This document shows, in pieces, positions 4,338-62,627 of a DNA stretch of 64,000 nt. A program made the translations under genes and the position numbers. Within the stretch, counting starts at the first letter, position 1; every line of letters begins with the position of its first letter. The notes under the pieces were generated by a model. It was not told where the DNA came from and did no database searches. It was given only the letters and a program-made list of their open reading frames with translations. Source of the stretch: Pseudoxanthomonas mexicana (GTDB taxonomy: Bacteria > Pseudomonadota > Gammaproteobacteria > Xanthomonadales > Xanthomonadaceae); assembly GCF_010093385.1 (NCBI RefSeq), contig NZ_PDWV01000010.1, positions 19,806 through 83,805 of the forward strand, read 5' to 3'.

Positions 4338-6953
4338 TCAGGCCGCTTTCGACGCGTCCAGGAAATCCTGGGCGAACCGCTGCAGCACCCCACCCGCCTC
4401 GTAGATCGAGACTTCCTCGTCCGAGTCCAGTCGGCAGGTCACCGGCACCCGCACGGTCTCGCCGTTCGCGCGGTGGATCACCAGCGTCAACGTCGCGCGC
4501 GGCCGGCGCTCGCCCACCACATCGAACGTTTCAGTGCCGTCGATGCCCCAGGTCTTGCGCGTCTGGCCCGGTTGGAACTCCAGCGGTAGCACGCCCATGC
4601 CGATCAGGTTGGTGCGGTGGATGCGCTCGAAGCCCTCGGCCACGATCGCTTCCACGCCAGCCAGACGCACGCCTTTCGCCGCCCAGTCGCGCGAGCTGCC
4701 CTGGCCGTAGTCGGCGCCGGCAATGATGACCAGCGGCTGCTTGCGGCCCATGTAGGTCTCGATGGCTTCCCACATGCGCACCACCTGCCCGTCCGGTTCG
4801 ATGCGTGCCAGCGAGCCCTTCTTTACCTCGCCATCGACCACCGCCATCTCGTTGACCAGCTGCGGATTGGCGAAGGTCGCGCGCTGCGCGGTGAGGTGGT
4901 CGCCGCGGTGGGTGGCGTAGGAATTGAAGTCCTCTTCCGGCAGGCCCATCTTCGCCAGGTACTCGCCCGCCGCACTCGAGGCGAGGATCGCGTTCGACGG
5001 CGACAGGTGGTCGGTGGTGATGTTGTCGCCCAGCACCGCCAGTGGGCGCATGCCGCGCAGCGTGCGTTCGCCGGCCAAAGCGCCTTCCCAGTAGGGCGGA
5101 CGACGGATGTAGGTGCTCTGCGGGCGCCAGGCGTAGAGCGGCTCGACGCGGCCGCCGTGCTCGACGCGCACGTTGAACATCGGCTCGTAGACCTTGCGGA
5201 ACTGGTCAGGCTTCACGCTGGCCTTCACCACCGCGTCGATCTCCGCATCGCTGGGCCAGATGTCCTTCAACGTAATCGGGTTGCCGTCGGCGTCGAAGCC
5301 CAGCGCGTCCTTCTCGATGTCGAAGCGCACCGTGCCGGCGATGGCATAGGCGATCACCAGCGGCGGCGAGGCGAGGAAGGCCTGCTTGGCGTAGGGATGG
5401 ATGCGCCCGTCGAAATTGCGGTTGCCCGACAGCACGGCGGTGGCGTAGAGGTCGCGGTCGATGATTTCCTGCTGGATCTTCGGATCCAGCGCGCCGCTCA
5501 TGCCATTGCAGGTGGTGCAGGCGAAGGCGACGATGCCGAAGCCGAGTTTCTCGAGGTCGGGCAGCAGGCCGGATTCCTCCAGGTAAAGCTGCACGGCCTT
5601 GGAGCCGGGTGCCAGCGAACTCTTCACCCAGGGCTTGCGCACCAGTCCCTTCGCGTTGGCATTGCGCGCCAGCAGCGCCGCCGCGATGACGTTGCGCGGA
5701 TTGGAGGTATTGGTGCACGAGGTGATGGCGGCGATGATGACCGCGCCATCGGGCATCAGGCCCTGCGCCTCCTCTGCCCTGCCCGCCTGCAGCTTGCCCT
5801 CGTCGGCGATGCCGCGCTCGGCCAGCGCGCTGGTCGGCAGGCGCCTGTGCGGATTGGACGGGCCGGCCATGTTGCGCACGACGGTGGACAGGTCGAAGTG
5901 CAGCGTGCGTTCGTACTGCGCGGTCTTCAGGTCGTCGGCCCACAGGCCTGCCGTCTTCGCGTAGGTCTCGACCAGCGCCACCTGTTCGTCGCTGCGGCCG
6001 GTCAGGCGCAGGTAGTCCAGCGTGTTGTCGTCGATGAAGAACATCGCGGCGGTCGCGCCGTACTCGGGCGCCATGTTGGAAATCGTCGCGCGGTCGCCGA
6101 TGGTCAGCGCCGCGGCGCCTTCGCCCCGGAACTCCAGGTAGGCGCCGACGACCTTTTCCTTGCGCAGGAATTCGGTCAGCGCCAGCACCACGTCGGTCGC
6201 GGTGATGCCGGGCGCCGGCCTGCCCTGCAGTTCGACGCCGACGATGTCCGGCGTGCGCATCCACGAGGCGCGGCCGAGCATGACGTTCTCCGCCTCCAGT
6301 CCGCCCACGCCGACGGCGATCACGCCCAGCGCATCGACGTGCGGGGTGTGGCTGTCGGTGCCCACGCAGGTGTCGGGAAACGCGACGCCGTCCTGGACAT
6401 AGACGACCGGCGACATCTTCTCCAGGTTGATCTGGTGCATGATCCCGTTGCCGGGCGGGATCACGTCGACGTTCTTGAACGCCTGCTTCGTCCAGTCGAT
6501 GAAGTGGAAGCGGTCCTCGTTGCGGCGGTCCTCGATGGACCGGTTCTTCGCGAACGCATCCGGATCGTAGCCGCCGCATTCCACCGCCAGCGAGTGGTCG
6601 ACGATCAGCTGCACCGGCACCACCGGGTTCACCTGCGCCGGGTCGCCGCCCATGTCGGCGATCGCATCGCGCAGCCCGGCCAGGTCCACCAGTGCGGTCT
6701 GGCCCAGGATGTCATGGCAGACCACGCGCACGGGAAACCACGGGAAATCCAGGTCGCGACGGCGTTCGACCAGCTGCCGCAGGTAGTCGTCGCGGCGTGC
6801 GGGATCGGCACGGCGCACGATGTTCTCGGCATGCACGCGCGCGGTGTACGGCAGCGTGGCCCAGGCGCCGGGCTGCAGGGCATCGACCGCGGCGCGCGCG
6901 TCGAAATAGTCGAGCGCGGTGCCCGGGAGCGAGGTGCGGAATTCGGTATTCAT
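4338..6953 (-). CDS. acnD: Fe/S-dependent 2-methylisocitrate dehydratase AcnD
   Basis: This 871-residue aconitase-superfamily enzyme has the [4Fe-4S] ligands visible as SCTNTSNP (near residue 410) and CTTCNG (near 477). The C-terminal swivel domain has ADYGQGSSRDWAAKG. Length and sequence fit AcnD rather than AcnA (about 890-900) or AcnB. The prpF gene nearby supports the assignment, because AcnD and PrpF together replace PrpD in the 2-methylcitrate cycle, where AcnD dehydrates 2-methylcitrate to 2-methylaconitate. A 160-bp gap to the upstream gene should hold the promoter; I saw no convincing sigma-54 or PrpR-type site there. Confidence 0.95.
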   Translation of the reverse strand: MNTEFRTSLPGTALDYFDARAAVDALQPGAWATLPYTARVHAENIVRRADPARRDDYLRQLVERRRDLDFPWFPVRVVCHDILGQTALVDLAGLRDAIADMGGDPAQVNPVVPVQLIVDHSLAVECGGYDPDAFAKNRSIEDRRNEDRFHFIDWTKQAFKNVDVIPPGNGIMHQINLEKMSPVVYVQDGVAFPDTCVGTDSHTPHVDALGVIAVGVGGLEAENVMLGRASWMRTPDIVGVELQGRPAPGITATDVVLALTEFLRKEKVVGAYLEFRGEGAAALTIGDRATISNMAPEYGATAAMFFIDDNTLDYLRLTGRSDEQVALVETYAKTAGLWADDLKTAQYERTLHFDLSTVVRNMAGPSNPHRRLPTSALAERGIADEGKLQAGRAEEAQGLMPDGAVIIAAITSCTNTSNPRNVIAAALLARNANAKGLVRKPWVKSSLAPGSKAVQLYLEESGLLPDLEKLGFGIVAFACTTCNGMSGALDPKIQQEIIDRDLYATAVLSGNRNFDGRIHPYAKQAFLASPPLVIAYAIAGTVRFDIEKDALGFDADGNPITLKDIWPSDAEIDAVVKASVKPDQFRKVYEPMFNVRVEHGGRVEPLYAWRPQSTYIRRPPYWEGALAGERTLRGMRPLAVLGDNITTDHLSPSNAILASSAAGEYLAKMGLPEEDFNSYATHRGDHLTAQRATFANPQLVNEMAVVDGEVKKGSLARIEPDGQVVRMWEAIETYMGRKQPLVIIAGADYGQGSSRDWAAKGVRLAGVEAIVAEGFERIHRTNLIGMGVLPLEFQPGQTRKTWGIDGTETFDVVGERRPRATLTLVIHRANGETVRVPVTCRLDSDEEVSIYEAGGVLQRFAQDFLDASKAA

Positions 6954-58369: not shown

Positions 58370-59389
58370 CTAGAACGCGTGGTCGAAGCCGACTTCGCCC
58401 TGCACGCCCAGCTGGTAGGCCGAGACCCGGCGCTCGAAGAAGTTGGTCAGCTCCTGCACGTCCTGCAGCTCCATGAAGGGCAGCGGGTTGCGCACGTCGT
58501 AGCGCTTGGGCATGCCGAGCTTGGCGAAGTGCTGGTCCGCGCAGTGCTGCAGGTACTGGCGCATGTCGCGCGTGGAGATCCCCGCCACGCCGCCGGACAG
58601 CACGTCCTCGGCGAACTGAACCTCGCACTCGATGGCTTCTTCCAGCATGTCGTAGACCTGCTGCTGCATGACGTCGTCGAACAGGTCCGGCTCTTCCTCG
58701 CGCACCGTGCGCACGCACTCGAACGCGAACTCCATGTGGCAGCTCTCGTCGCGGAACACCCAGTTGGTGCCGCTGGCCAGGCCCGGGAGCAGTCCGCGCG
58801 AGCGGAAGTAGTACACGTAGGCGAACGCGGCGAAGAAGAACAGGCCCTCGATGCAGGCGGCGAAGCAGATCTGGTTGAGCAGGAATTGTCGGCGGTGGTC
58901 GCGCGTCTCGATCCGCTTCAGGTCCTGAATACTGTCGATCCACTTGAAGCAGAAGTCGGCCTTCTTCTTGATCGCCGGGATGTTCTCCACCGCCGCGAAC
59001 GCCTTGAAGCGCTCCGCCGGGTCGGGCAGGTAGTTGTCCAGCAGCGTCAGGTAGAACTGCACGTGCAGCGCTTCTTCGTAGAGTTGCCGCGACAGGTACA
59101 TGCGCGCCTCGGGCGCGTTGAGGTGCTGGTACAGGTTCAGCACCAGGTTGTTCGACACGATGGAATCGCCGGTGGCGAAGAACGCGACCAGCCGGTGGAT
59201 CAGGTGGCGGTCGGCCGGCGTCATCTTCGCATGCAGGTCGGTGATGTCGATCTGGAAGTTGATCTCCTCCACCGTCCATGTGTTCTTGATCGCGTCGCGG
59301 TACATGTCATAGAACTGCGGATAGCGCATCGGGCGCAGCGTCAGTTCGAAACCGGGGTCTAGCAGCATCTGCTTGGGTTGGGCGGACAT
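58370..59389 (-). CDS. nrdB: Class Ia ribonucleotide-diphosphate reductase, beta subunit
   Basis: This 339-residue protein has the diiron-site ligands in FFATGDSIV (Asp), YEEALHVQFY (Glu and His), CIEGLFFFAAF (Glu) and RDESCHMEF (Glu, His). The radical Tyr is at His+4 in EALHVQFY, the same spacing as E. coli Y122. It supplies the tyrosyl radical to NrdA. AGGA precedes the ATG by about seven bases. It is the second gene of the operon, 120 bp after nrdA, which carries the riboswitch-controlled leader. Confidence 0.95.
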   Translation of the reverse strand: MSAQPKQMLLDPGFELTLRPMRYPQFYDMYRDAIKNTWTVEEINFQIDITDLHAKMTPADRHLIHRLVAFFATGDSIVSNNLVLNLYQHLNAPEARMYLSRQLYEEALHVQFYLTLLDNYLPDPAERFKAFAAVENIPAIKKKADFCFKWIDSIQDLKRIETRDHRRQFLLNQICFAACIEGLFFFAAFAYVYYFRSRGLLPGLASGTNWVFRDESCHMEFAFECVRTVREEEPDLFDDVMQQQVYDMLEEAIECEVQFAEDVLSGGVAGISTRDMRQYLQHCADQHFAKLGMPKRYDVRNPLPFMELQDVQELTNFFERRVSAYQLGVQGEVGFDHAF

Positions 59390-59509: not shown

Positions 59510-61936
59510 TTACTGGCAGGCCTCGCAGGCTTCCGGGTTCTCCAGCGAGCAGGCGATGGCTTCGGTCGACGTGTATTCGCGCTTGGGCGAGGCTGCGGCC
59601 GTGCTGACCGTGGTCTTCGCGATCTTCGTCGCCGGGCGCGAGCGCAGGTAGTAGGTGGTCTTGATGCCCCGCTTCCAGGCGTACATGTACATGGACGACA
59701 TCGCACCGATGTTCGGGCTTTCCATGAACAGGTTGAGCGAGGCCGACTGGTCGATGAAGGCGCCACGGTCGGCGGCCATGTCGATCAGCGAGCGCATCGG
59801 CAGTTCCCACGCCGTGCGGTAGACCTGCTGCAGCGTGTACGGGATCTGGGGGATGCCCTGGATGGAGCCTTCCGCCAGTTTGATCGCGTCGCGGATTTCG
59901 GGCGTCCACAGGCCGAGCTTCTTCAGCTCGTCCACCAGGTAGCGGTTGACCTGCAGGAAGTCGCCCGACAGCGTCTCGCGCTTGAACAGGTTGGACACCT
60001 GCGGTTCCACGCACTCGTAGCAGCCGGCGATCGAGGCGATGGTGGCAGTCGGTGCGATGGCGATCAGCAGCGAGTTGCGCAGGCCGTGTTCCCTGATCCG
60101 CGCGCGCAACGCGTCCCAGCGCTCGGTATCCTCCGGCGTGATGTTCCAGGCGTCGAACTGCAGTTCGCCGTTGGCGGCGCGGGTGTCGGCGAAGGACGGG
60201 TGCCGGCCGCGTTCCTGCGCCAGTTCCACCGAGGTATCCAGCGCGTGGAAGTAGATGGTCTCGGCGATCTTCGCCGACAGCGTGCGTGCCTCGGTGCTGT
60301 CGAACGGCAGGCGGAGCTTGAAGAACCCGTCCTGCAGGCCCATGCAGCCCAGGCCGACCGGGCGCCAGCGCAGGTTGCCGCGGCGGGCGGTTTCGATGGG
60401 ATAGAAGTTCAGGTCGATCACGCGGTCCAGCTGGCGCACGGCCAGGCGGACGGTTTCGGCGAGCTTGTCGAAATCGAAGTATCCGTCCTCGTCGAAATGG
60501 CGGGCCAGGTTGATCGAGCCCAGGTTGCACACCGCCGTTTCCTCGGCCGAGGTGACCTCGAGGATCTCGGTGCACAGGTTGGACAGGTGGATGACATTGC
60601 CCGCGCGCAGCGTCTGGTTGCTGGCCGCGTTGCACTTGTCCTTGAACGTCATCCAGCCGTTGCCGGTCTCGGCCAGCGTGCGCATCATCCGGCCGTACAG
60701 CTTGCGGGCCGGGATGGTCTTGACGGCCTTGCCCTGCAGTTCCGCCTGCGTGTACGCCAGCTCGAACGCGGCACCGTACAGGTCGGTCAGTTCCGGCACC
60801 ACGCGCGGATCGAACAGCGACCAGTCCTGGTCGGCCTCGACGCGCTTCATGAACAGGTCCGGCACCCAGTTGGCCAGGTTGAGGTTGTGCGTGCGGCGCG
60901 CTTCGTCGCCGGTGTTGTCGCGCAGCTCCAGGAAGTCCTCGATGTCGGCATGCCAGGTTTCCAGGTACACGCAGGCCGCGCCCTTGCGCTTGCCGCCCTG
61001 GTTGACCGCCGCGACCGAGGAATCCAGCGTCTTCAGCCACGGCACGATGCCGTTGCTGTGGCCGTTGGTGGACTTGATCAGCGAGCCGCGCGAACGCACG
61101 CGGGTGTAGCTCACGCCGATGCCGCCGCTGAACTTGCTCAGCTGGGCGATGTCGCCGTACTTGGCATAGATGGATTCCAGCGTGTCCTGCGGCGAGTCCA
61201 GCAGGAAGCACGACGACAACTGCTCGTGCGTGGTGCCGCTGTTGAACAGCGTCGGCGAGCTGGGCAGGTAGTCCAGGTGGCCCATGCGGCGGTACAGCGC
61301 CAGCGCTTCCGGCACGTCTTCGCTCAGCGCGCAGGCGATGCGCAGGAAGAACTGCTGCGGCGTCTCGATCACCTTGCGGGTGTGCGGATGGCGCAGCAGG
61401 TAGCGGTCGTACAGCGTGCGCAGACCGAAGTAGTCGAAGTGCAGGTCGAGCGAGGCATCCAGCGCATCGTTGAGCTTGCGCGCATTGGTCTGCACGAAGT
61501 TCAGCAGGCGGTCGTTGATCAGGCCGACCTCGTGGCCGCGGGTGACCGACTGCGAGAACGCGTGGATCTCCTGGCCGGTGACCTCCTTGGTGATGTAGGC
61601 GGCCAGCAGGCGCGCGGCCAGGCGGCTGTACTCGGGTTCTTCACCGGTCAGCAGCGCGGCGGTGCGGATGGAGAGCTCGTCCAGTTCGCGCGTGCTGGCG
61701 CCGTCGTACAGGCCGGAGATGGTGCGGGTGGCCACGCGCATCGGGTCGATGGCGTGCAGGCCTTCGCAGTTGCGCTGCACCGCGCGCACGATCTTGTTGA
61801 GGTCCACCGGCTCGCGGCTGCCGTTGCGCTTGGTCACGCTCATCGCGGTGGCGGTGGGCGGCGGCGTCAGCGAGAACGCGTCTTTCTGGGACGGAGCGGT
61901 GCCGGCGTCGGCGACGGCGCTGTCGATCTGGGTCAC
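59510..61936 (-). CDS. nrdA: Class Ia ribonucleotide-diphosphate reductase, alpha subunit
   Basis: This 808-residue protein has an N-terminal ATP-cone (VTKRNGSREPVDLNKIVRAVQRN). The catalytic barrel shows the redox Cys in LSSCFLLD, the active-site Cys in HLSNLCTEIL with Glu, and the partner Cys in AVCNLGSINLA. The C-terminal CxxC (EACEACQ) accepts electrons from thioredoxin. The GTG start is preceded by GGAGG at a good spacing (61943-61947); earlier codons lie in the riboswitch. The enzyme makes deoxynucleotides aerobically without B12. Its leader contains a cobalamin riboswitch. Confidence 0.96.
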   Translation of the reverse strand: MTQIDSAVADAGTAPSQKDAFSLTPPPTATAMSVTKRNGSREPVDLNKIVRAVQRNCEGLHAIDPMRVATRTISGLYDGASTRELDELSIRTAALLTGEEPEYSRLAARLLAAYITKEVTGQEIHAFSQSVTRGHEVGLINDRLLNFVQTNARKLNDALDASLDLHFDYFGLRTLYDRYLLRHPHTRKVIETPQQFFLRIACALSEDVPEALALYRRMGHLDYLPSSPTLFNSGTTHEQLSSCFLLDSPQDTLESIYAKYGDIAQLSKFSGGIGVSYTRVRSRGSLIKSTNGHSNGIVPWLKTLDSSVAAVNQGGKRKGAACVYLETWHADIEDFLELRDNTGDEARRTHNLNLANWVPDLFMKRVEADQDWSLFDPRVVPELTDLYGAAFELAYTQAELQGKAVKTIPARKLYGRMMRTLAETGNGWMTFKDKCNAASNQTLRAGNVIHLSNLCTEILEVTSAEETAVCNLGSINLARHFDEDGYFDFDKLAETVRLAVRQLDRVIDLNFYPIETARRGNLRWRPVGLGCMGLQDGFFKLRLPFDSTEARTLSAKIAETIYFHALDTSVELAQERGRHPSFADTRAANGELQFDAWNITPEDTERWDALRARIREHGLRNSLLIAIAPTATIASIAGCYECVEPQVSNLFKRETLSGDFLQVNRYLVDELKKLGLWTPEIRDAIKLAEGSIQGIPQIPYTLQQVYRTAWELPMRSLIDMAADRGAFIDQSASLNLFMESPNIGAMSSMYMYAWKRGIKTTYYLRSRPATKIAKTTVSTAAASPKREYTSTEAIACSLENPEACEACQ

Positions 61937-61942
61937 GAGAAT

Positions 61943-62004
61943 CCTCCATGCGTGGTGCACGCGGCGGCCCGTCCCTCGCGGGGCTGCGCAAGGCCGGATG
62001 GAGG
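61943..62004 (-). promoter_or_regulatory. Possible anti-Shine-Dalgarno pairing in the nrdA leader
   Basis: The nrdA ribosome-binding site ATGGAGG (61943-61949, read on the minus strand) is exactly complementary to CCTCCAT 48 bases upstream (61998-62004). A 7-bp pair could hide the site in the repressed state of the riboswitch. This is predicted from sequence only. Confidence 0.4.
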
Positions 62005-62129
62005 TCAACAGTGGGGAAGCGGCGTCGCAGGAGACGCGACCGCGCAGACGGACTGCGGGCGCCCTGCTTCGCCAGCCCTCTCCCCCCGGAGATTCCGCGG
62101 CCGGCACCGCGCGGTGTGCATCGCGCGGC

Positions 62130-62322
62130 TGTCGGCAGGTCTTCGGACTCATGGGCGCGAAGGGCGAGCCTTCTTCCTACATCCGCCGCTTCCCAAGGCA
62201 TGGCGCCTCAGTGCTGGTGGCGGGTTCGTTCCCAATTACCGCTGCGGGGCAGTGCCGGAGTGGCGCGAACGCGTCACCGGCTTCCCGTTTTAATCCCGTG
62301 GCTTGCGACCACCGGAACCGAC
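62130..62322 (-). promoter_or_regulatory. Cobalamin (B12) riboswitch in front of nrdA
   Basis: On the minus strand the leader shows the conserved order of the aptamer: GGGAAGCCGGTG (62275-62286), then CTCCGGCACTGCCCCGCAGCGGTAA, then CACTG with GGGAAGcgg, and the 3' B12 box ATGAGTCCGAAGACCTGCC (62134-62152). These match the family in both sequence and spacing. A perfect hairpin (CCGCGCG / CGCGCGG) follows directly at 62107-62128 and may be part of the expression platform. High B12 is expected to lower nrdAB expression. Confidence 0.93.
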
Positions 62323-62324
62323 GG

Positions 62325-62372
62325 CCACAACATAGTGGGGCAAGCAGGAAGCGTCAACACGAAATGTTGTGT
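62325..62372 (-). promoter_or_regulatory. nrdA promoter overlapped by two NrdR-box-like sites
   Basis: On the minus strand TTGACG (62352-62357) and TATGTT (62329-62334) are 17 bp apart; transcription would start near 62322, just before the riboswitch. A 16-bp site ACACAACATTTCGTGT (62357-62372) matches the NrdR consensus ACACWATATATWGTGT at 13 of 16 positions. A second, weaker site CCCCACTATGTTGTGG (62325-62340) matches at 11 of 16. They start exactly 32 bp apart, the spacing typical of paired NrdR boxes, and cover the -35 and -10 regions. Confidence 0.75.
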
Positions 62373-62415
62373 GGAACAGCGGCAGTCGGTGCCATGCGGG
62401 TTTCACGGTTTGGAT

Positions 62416-62627
62416 CCTTCTCCCCGCTGGGCGGGGAGAAGGTGCCCGAAGAGCCTGCCCCGTACTGGATACGGGGGCGGATGAGGGGCAGGCGCGGTGA
62501 CGATGCGTGCGTGAAGCGCTTTGGTATCAAGAATGCTGTTCCGATCCGACGCATTGGGTGCCCGGACTCCGTTCGCCCTCACCCGCCTTCGGCACCCTCT
62601 CCCCGCTGCGCAGGGAGAGGGGAAGGA
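62416..62627. repeat. Family B inverted pair, copy 2
   Basis: The left block (62416-62490) has CCTTCTCCCCGC, GCGGGGAGAAGGTGCCCG and CGGATGAGGGG. The right block (62571-62627) is its approximate reverse complement with CCCTCACCCGCCTTCGGC and CTGCGCAGGGAGAGGGG. It ends four bases before the hglS stop and begins upstream of the nrdA promoter. Its layout equals that of copy 1, which is 13.5 kb away. Confidence 0.8.

Follow-up and report, generated by a model that had tools for sequence, protein, structure and literature searches.

The nrdAB locus and its leader

The DNA examined here (the window) is a stretch of 64,000 nucleotides from Pseudoxanthomonas mexicana (Xanthomonadaceae; contig NZ_PDWV01000010.1, positions 19,806 to 83,805 of the forward strand), and the element in question is the leader of nrdAB, the genes of a class I ribonucleotide reductase. 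Ribonucleotide reductase feeds all DNA synthesis. The genome (G000) amounts to 3.97 Mb in 115 contigs and is rated 100% complete; by comparison with other genomes its nrdA comes closest to Pseudoxanthomonas. On the minus strand of the window the locus consists, in this order, of a first NrdR-type box, the hexamer TTGACG, a second box containing the hexamer TATGTT, a cobalamin riboswitch aptamer (RF00174), a leader of 180 nt, the Shine-Dalgarno match GGAGG, nrdA and nrdB (Table 1). GGAGG lies 6 nt upstream of the GTG start codon of nrdA, whose product of 808 amino acids possesses an N-terminal ATP cone and matches PF02867, PF00317 and PF03477. The best NCBIfam match of nrdB is NF005550 with 251.8 bits, under the cut-off of 309; most of its other matches are nrdB/nrdF models.

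Table 1. Features of the nrdAB locus, in window coordinates
Feature	Position	Strand	Remarks
nrdA, class I ribonucleotide reductase alpha subunit	59510..61936	minus	TIGR02506 728 bits, cut-off 341
nrdB, class I beta subunit	about 58370..59389	minus	ATG start chosen by us
GUGC, complementary to the hairpin A loop GCAC	61957..61960	minus	just upstream of the Shine-Dalgarno match; suggestive only
Post-aptamer module R1 (P1 3' strand, hairpin A, hairpin B)	62063..62136	minus	R1 89.8 bits
Hairpin B, UCUCC-GGGG-GGAGA	62078..62093	minus	both-sided changes in 5 of its 6 pairs
CGGC, can pair with GCCG 62133-62136 (P1 3' strand)	62100..62103	minus	RNAalifold prediction
Hairpin A, CCGCGCG-AUGCACAC-CGCGCGG	62107..62128	minus	near-invariant in 43 aligned leaders
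Cobalamin riboswitch aptamer, RF00174	62117..62337	minus	107 bits, E 8.3e-26
NrdR box 2, CCCCACTATGTTGTGG	62325..62340	minus	11/16 match to the presumed NrdR consensus; contains the -10 hexamer
Promoter-like site, TTGACG-N17-TATGTT	62329..62357	minus	sigma-70-like, 9/12 matches
NrdR box 1, ACACAACATTTCGTGT	62357..62372	minus	13/16 match to the presumed NrdR consensus

An earlier note, made from the letters of the window, had described two NrdR-box-like 16-mers 32 bp apart over a TTGACG/TATGTT promoter, followed by a full cobalamin aptamer and a GTG-started nrdA. All of these are present where it placed them on the minus strand, and the gene is confirmed by its protein model. The comparison with RF00174 that it had proposed bears out the aptamer at full length: in the covariance search the match covers all 189 positions of the family, includes the conserved core and well exceeds the gathering score of 31.5. 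TTGACG (62357-62352) and TATGTT (62334-62329, inside box 2) constitute the single promoter-like site detected between 61800 and 62420, where shuffles give a mean of 0.1. Transcription is predicted to start near 62322, where the P1 strand of the aptamer lies. Box 2 extends over the initial 13 bases of the RF00174 match, so that the operator, the -10 hexamer and the edge of the aptamer are fused into one another.

No intrinsic-terminator-like site was found in 61800-62420 and the leader lacks any run of four T; the G+C-rich hairpin followed by a U run that marks an intrinsic-terminator riboswitch is thus not seen here. Searches of the nrdA leader for further known RNA families returned sub-threshold chance matches only. 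A small open reading frame (ORF) within the leader was likewise rejected, its start after GGGGGGAG being unconserved by eye in the leaders compared. Before the nrdA ribosome site (window 61967-61984) there is a hairpin with a CGAGGGA-type loop, which also occurs in many relatives' leaders and resembles what we take to be an RsmA/CsrA site.

Partner genes in the genome

PF02867 detects two large subunits in the genome, NrdA and NrdJ. The class II gene nrdJ, predicted by the earlier note, is located at C52:25805-27445 and encodes 716 amino acids (TIGR02504 583 bits, cut-off 400). The regulator gene nrdR, predicted along with it, encodes a protein of 178 amino acids (TIGR00244 199.5, cut-off 124.65); a search for ATP cones yields NrdA and NrdR. 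The ORF in front of nrdR resembles glyA by eye, and nrdR is not adjacent to nrdJ. An FMN riboswitch (100.9 bits) is found downstream of nrdR (L009 453-651, minus strand).

The genome contains a second RF00174 match (92.5 bits), which precedes the TonB receptor gene btuB (BtuB: TIGR01779 617 bits, cut-off 600). The corrin-ring marker PF02570 (CbiC) has no match in this 100%-complete genome, while the control is positive in 7 of 14 genomes, and vitamin B12 is therefore probably salvaged rather than made.

No RF00174 match occurs in the 10 kb around nrdJ (L007), which thus has no B12 riboswitch of its own, and the nrdJ leader in L007 matches no Rfam family. When whole upstream regions of nrdJ were scored, from this genome and 20 relatives (L148-L167) with 60 shuffles each, an NrdR-like pair 31-32 bp apart exceeded the shuffle maximum in 20 of 21, L164 being the failure. 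The nrdJ leader is long in these regions: where the ATG could be placed, some 250-300 nt separate it from the NrdR-like boxes. In several relatives the nrdJ match is broken by an in-frame, intein-like insert of ~370 codons (G020, G027, G031, G036, G047, G056, G059, G065, G076, G085, G110 and G144). In L177 (G088:C12:19500-27500) riboswitch and nrdA are immediately preceded by nrdJ in the same orientation.

The riboswitch and nrdJ in related genomes

Our family sample comprises 99 genomes (G000-G098), of which 89 are at least 90% complete; 73 of these have an assigned nrdA, nrdJ being separated from nrdA by PF02867 score and span in an assignment of our own. An nrdA riboswitch together with nrdJ is present in 63 of these genomes, a riboswitch without nrdJ in none, nrdJ without a riboswitch in one and neither in nine. 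Among the 73, the nrdA riboswitch thus occurs in 63 of 64 genomes with nrdJ and in 0 of 9 without it. The remaining 16 near-complete genomes possess nrdJ and no assigned nrdA. Among the 10 less complete genomes, riboswitch and nrdJ are found together in three, nrdJ alone in one and no assignable gene in three; the others are given below.

A second, named sample holds 80 nrdA loci, in which aptamers were detected by an oriented profile search at a threshold of 60 bits set by us. The aptamer is found in 51 loci (the covariance search was applied to L111 and L113 among them) and is lacking in 29, none of which contains RF00174 at the gathering score in the covariance search. nrdJ was searched for in 49 genomes of the 80 loci and exceeds the cut-off in 21 of 21 riboswitch-bearing but in 1 of 28 riboswitch-less genomes. 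The Stenotrophomonas maltophilia-titled records in this search have neither riboswitch nor nrdJ; S. nitritireducens (L127) has both, and riboswitch (L070) and nrdJ (G133) are also found in Pseudoxanthomonas japonensis DSM 17109. The co-occurrence in the two samples backs the isoenzyme logic of the earlier note, by which the riboswitch controls the B12-independent enzyme where nrdJ exists.

Shared ancestry could produce the same pattern if a few clades had lost both elements for unrelated reasons, with no choice between enzymes. Losses do cluster by genus (three genomes of g17, two each of g44 and g29), and 24 of the 29 riboswitch-less named loci are from Stenotrophomonas by the titles of their records. 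Yet they are spread over five genera (g17, g18, g29, g44, g53), and within g29 one member, G029, keeps riboswitch and nrdJ while its relatives G071 and G098 have neither. Moreover, some nrdJ-less lineages without an RF00174 match still contain decayed aptamers legible by eye. Among the riboswitch-less loci, a core remnant of ~100 nt is left in L103 and L104 (38 and 36 bits in the profile search), and the P1 ends are visibly retained in L090, L092 and L086. We consider common descent alone very unlikely as an explanation.

Other observations concern additional nrd genes and riboswitches. The nrdJ-less S. maltophilia SJTL3 possesses a second class I nrdAB (L168 642-4315; NF006665 1464.8, cut-off 1057; NF007184 498.5, cut-off 310) with an NrdR-like box pair of its own, and such extra matches are frequent among the nrdJ-less Stenotrophomonas genomes searched for nrdJ. 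Two Lysobacter loci (L132 6114-6276, L138 6222-6383) have a second riboswitch-like match 3' of the nrdA match. A Lysobacter-like nrdA with the same leader also occurs on a contig whose record names the cyanobacterium Tolypothrix campylonemoides (L143); this is probably contamination.

NrdR boxes in the window and in relatives

Boxes were scored against letters which we take to be the NrdR consensus. The pair in the window scores 24 and is the sole pair of at least 21 at a spacing of 31-32 bp in the 64 kb, its own plus-strand mirror image aside. The start-to-start distance of the boxes is 32 bp, and both keep C4 and G13, nine bases apart. A highly conserved C and G at this distance, and a spacing of about three helical turns, are described for NrdR sites (PMC9110341). 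The nrdA leader accordingly shows the features of an NrdR operator pair, namely 16-bp boxes about three turns apart, over a promoter, with the C/G bases.

In the named sample the best nrdA box pair is spaced 31-32 bp in 71 of 80 loci (46/51 with and 25/29 without the riboswitch), and a pair at this spacing exceeds the maximum of 30 shuffles in 68 (44/51 and 24/29). The loci failing the shuffle test are L074, L092, L103, L104, L107, L115, L118, L121, L124, L131, L145 and L147; in L074, L103 and L104 box 1 may fall outside the scanned stretch. The nrdJ-less genomes of the family sample, scored without shuffle control, have spacing-32 pairs of 20-23 (L171-L175, L179), and the best pair of L176 reaches only 18 at spacing 31. 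The NrdR boxes mostly outlive the loss of riboswitch and nrdJ.

Boxes of this kind might be remnants or chance similarities, with nrdAB responding to B12 alone. Box 2 agrees with only 11 of 16 consensus positions, and 12 of the 80 relatives lack a pair above shuffles. Such a reading is nevertheless most improbable, given that the three-turn spacing is that described for NrdR (PMC9110341) and recurs above shuffles in the other 68, that the pair is kept in 24 of 29 loci without riboswitch, and that NrdR is encoded in the genome.

A conserved RNA module behind the aptamer

Most aptamer-bearing nrdA leaders have in common a stretch that opens with the P1 3' strand and contains a hairpin of the general form CCGCGCG-nnGCACnn-CGCGCGG (hairpin A) followed by hairpin B; visual inspection of non-nrdA riboswitches did not reveal hairpin A behind them. 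Neither this module nor its persistence without an aptamer was part of the earlier note. We aligned 43 of 48 motif-found leaders, omitting four near-duplicates and the divergent L116; the motif search missed L111, L123, L132 and L144. RNAalifold predicts 18 pairs, six of them with both-sided changes, of which five belong to hairpin B. Hairpin B is also a possible partner of the aptamer loop which we take to be the C-rich L5, with which it might form a kissing contact. The pairing of GCCG with CGGC is predicted as well, and its pairs hardly vary, so that the alignment gives no proof of them.

A covariance model, R1, was built from the 43 sequences, one of which is the window leader. R1 has a sense-strand match in 69 of 71 nrdA-linked riboswitch loci (51/51 in the named sample, where 42 loci had served to build the model, and 18/20 in the family sample), including weak matches of 35-39 bits in L116, L013 and L017. 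It is absent from L019 (G073) and L030 (G024), which continue into a different platform; G024 has no nrdJ match, but is only 83% complete. Behind 20 non-nrdA riboswitches R1 finds only L038, weakly (18.7 bits, E 0.72), and in other places the matches at chance level go up to 25.8 bits (window 5038-5112, E 0.037). Across the class R1 is found in 3 of 274 genomes, all of the own family and at nrdA, in a search whose stricter filters may lose weak matches and whose sample holds few family members. A second NrdA lineage (L014/L178 from G087; PF02867 about 535 bits) has the same leader type with boxes, aptamer and an R1 match of 80 bits; this suggests either a leader retained while the coding region behind it was swapped, or a copied leader.

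From these pairings a switch can be proposed. With B12 bound, helix P1 would form and sequester the GCCG strand. Without B12, GCCG would pair with CGGC ~30 nt downstream and close hairpin A, the two folds being mutually exclusive. The toggle would shift hairpin B and the structures behind it, and output would fall through blocked translation or Rho-dependent termination. According to RNA-seq data, 10 of 15 Gram-negative taxa had one or more cobalamin riboswitches that act at the level of transcription (PMC12121620).

Alternatively, the loop GCAC of hairpin A might pair with the GUGC before the nrdA ribosome site and so set translation, B12 doing no more than freeing or hiding hairpin A. GCAC and GUGC are present in most of 59 scored leaders, and complementarity is kept in the variants GUAC/GUAC (L090, L092) and GUGC/GCAC (L086, by eye). 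The observed 4.49 matched bases exceed the 3.32 of letter shuffles of the ribosome-site region, but partners swapped between loci give 4.32 +/- 0.09, with 80 of 2000 permutations as high; the counts include L106, L113, L125, L126 and L131, whose script-assigned nrdA starts seem wrong. The core covaries little because it is nearly invariant, and GUGC can also pair locally. We regard this contact as possible, though rather unlikely.

The module in leaders without an aptamer

In riboswitch-less nrdA leaders R1 gives 11 matches at E <=0.001, in sources preselected by an earlier R1 match and with L169 (the same locus as L086) omitted. All but L086 come from nrdJ-less genomes. L090, a module-bearing leader without riboswitch, belongs to the environmental isolate Stenotrophomonas bentonitica VV6. 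In the 8 distinct sequences, aligned by fitting to R1 and hence leaning towards the model, 94.1% of cells pair, and both-sided changes occur in 9 of 18 pairs, against 3.9 +/- 1.1 in shuffles and 0-4 in slid versions. Pairing amounts to 96.8% in hairpin A, 95.1% in hairpin B and 87.5% in the helix competing with P1. Pairing and both-sided changes suggest continued selection on the hairpins in leaders whose sensor is gone. When six decayed leaders are compared with nine riboswitch leaders, the module is the best-kept part in five (0.60-0.73 identity), the exception being L086, whose aptamer remnant equals the module in similarity (0.66 vs 0.65).

The 74-nt module could then be a regulatory RNA in its own right, tied to the nrdA leaders of this family and standing in tandem with the B12 aptamer, and B12-independent control of nrdA could persist after the loss first of nrdJ and then of the aptamer. 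Several observations speak against such persistence. Among riboswitch leaders identity is 0.86 in the module, 0.71 in the aptamer and 0.61 in the rest; the fall to 0.60-0.73 means that the module drifted after aptamer loss, and more so than the rest of the leader. R1 matches are weak in riboswitch-less L079 (31 bits) and L084 (28 bits), and they do not exceed chance level in L171 (18.9 bits, E 0.67) or in L176 (22.4 bits, E 0.15), where only positions 3-35 match. No R1 match at E <=1 occurs in the riboswitch-less L077, L078, L080-L083, L085, L087, L088, L095-L097, L100, L107, L119, L120, L134, L172, L173, L174 and L179. An independent role of the module is thus a tentative and somewhat doubtful proposal; if true, the module would be a riboswitch that kept its actuator and lost its sensor.

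Proposed control of nrdAB and related systems

The nrdAB leader, with its two NrdR-type boxes and fused cobalamin riboswitch, very probably serves to lower nrdAB under B12, when NrdJ would take over. Repression of nrdAB by B12, binding of the boxes by NrdR and the switching of enzymes are what we infer from the sequences compared. NrdR, which binds DNA upon a rise in dATP (PMC9110341), would sense ATP and dATP and set the transcribed amount of both reductase classes. The riboswitch, sensing salvaged cobalamin, would select the class by removing nrdAB alone.

The following points weigh against this interpretation. Fisher's test on the near-complete family genomes gives p 1e-10, a value that ignores shared ancestry and is not a true probability because the genomes are related. 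Two genomes depart from the pattern: G034 has nrdJ and a divergent NrdA (453 bits) without a riboswitch, and Stenotrophomonas sp. ISL-67 (L086/G110) has nrdJ and no RF00174 match at nrdA. G004 and G082, sorted as nrdJ only, each have another PF02867 match that was left unassigned (371 and 50 bits) and would be a further exception if it were a class I nrdA. G066, counted among the 63, rests on gene fragments. The incomplete genomes G007, G024 and G030 (72, 83 and 87% complete as a set) have the riboswitch and no nrdJ match. Within the leader, the output mechanism of the expression platform, which is long at 180 nt, was not found. In Pseudomonas aeruginosa, finally, where no riboswitch is involved, the decrease of nrd expression by B12 is described as slight (PMC5962746).

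Combined control by NrdR and B12 is described in two known systems. In Streptomyces coelicolor nrdABS is under a B12 riboswitch (Borovok et al. 2006 as cited in PMC3293853, PMC5962746), and NrdR binds the nrdAB and nrdRJ promoters (PMC9110341). The likeness extends to the class II nrdJ in the same genome; the actinobacterium differs in having nrdR beside nrdJ (nrdRJ), whereas in the gammaproteobacterial window genome nrdR is apart from nrdJ. In the window genome a conserved module also follows the aptamer; the comparison with Streptomyces covers the riboswitch, NrdR binding and the nrd genes. For Propionibacterium acnes, an NrdR box and a cobalamin riboswitch on nrdAB are reported together with a B12-using NrdJ described without a riboswitch, and a B12-dependent shift of reductase production to NrdJ is already proposed there (PMC3848588). 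According to the same source nrdAB of P. acnes has a single nrd-box, unlike the pair found here, and nrdDG is also under a riboswitch. Bacillus methanolicus, of another phylum, shares the cobalamin riboswitch at (AdoCbl)-nrdAB, in a description that makes no mention of NrdR in the text consulted (PMC4342826). Isozymes of B12-dependent enzymes form a class of the cobalamin regulon (PMC3766115). With the P. acnes and S. coelicolor precedents, the control principle is therefore already known. Within the family of the window genome, cobalamin riboswitches outside nrdA, such as that of btuB in the window genome, share the RF00174 aptamer and differ in the 3' platform. A search of open-licence literature, in main texts, did not find the gammaproteobacterial form with its fused leader, the paired losses or the 74-nt module. 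Rodionov 2003 and Vitreschak 2003 may already include nrdAB leaders from this group.

Many members of the family (among them Pseudoxanthomonas, Lysobacter and some Stenotrophomonas) appear to select their reductase class by vitamin B12, and the deciding vitamin is one that the window genome seems unable to make. Choice of enzyme and its amount would be encoded in a single fused operator-aptamer leader. The natural losses of nrdJ in several genera offer a ready comparison, since a B12 response should be absent there, and the module behind decayed aptamers allows the question of what role an expression platform may have after its sensor is lost.

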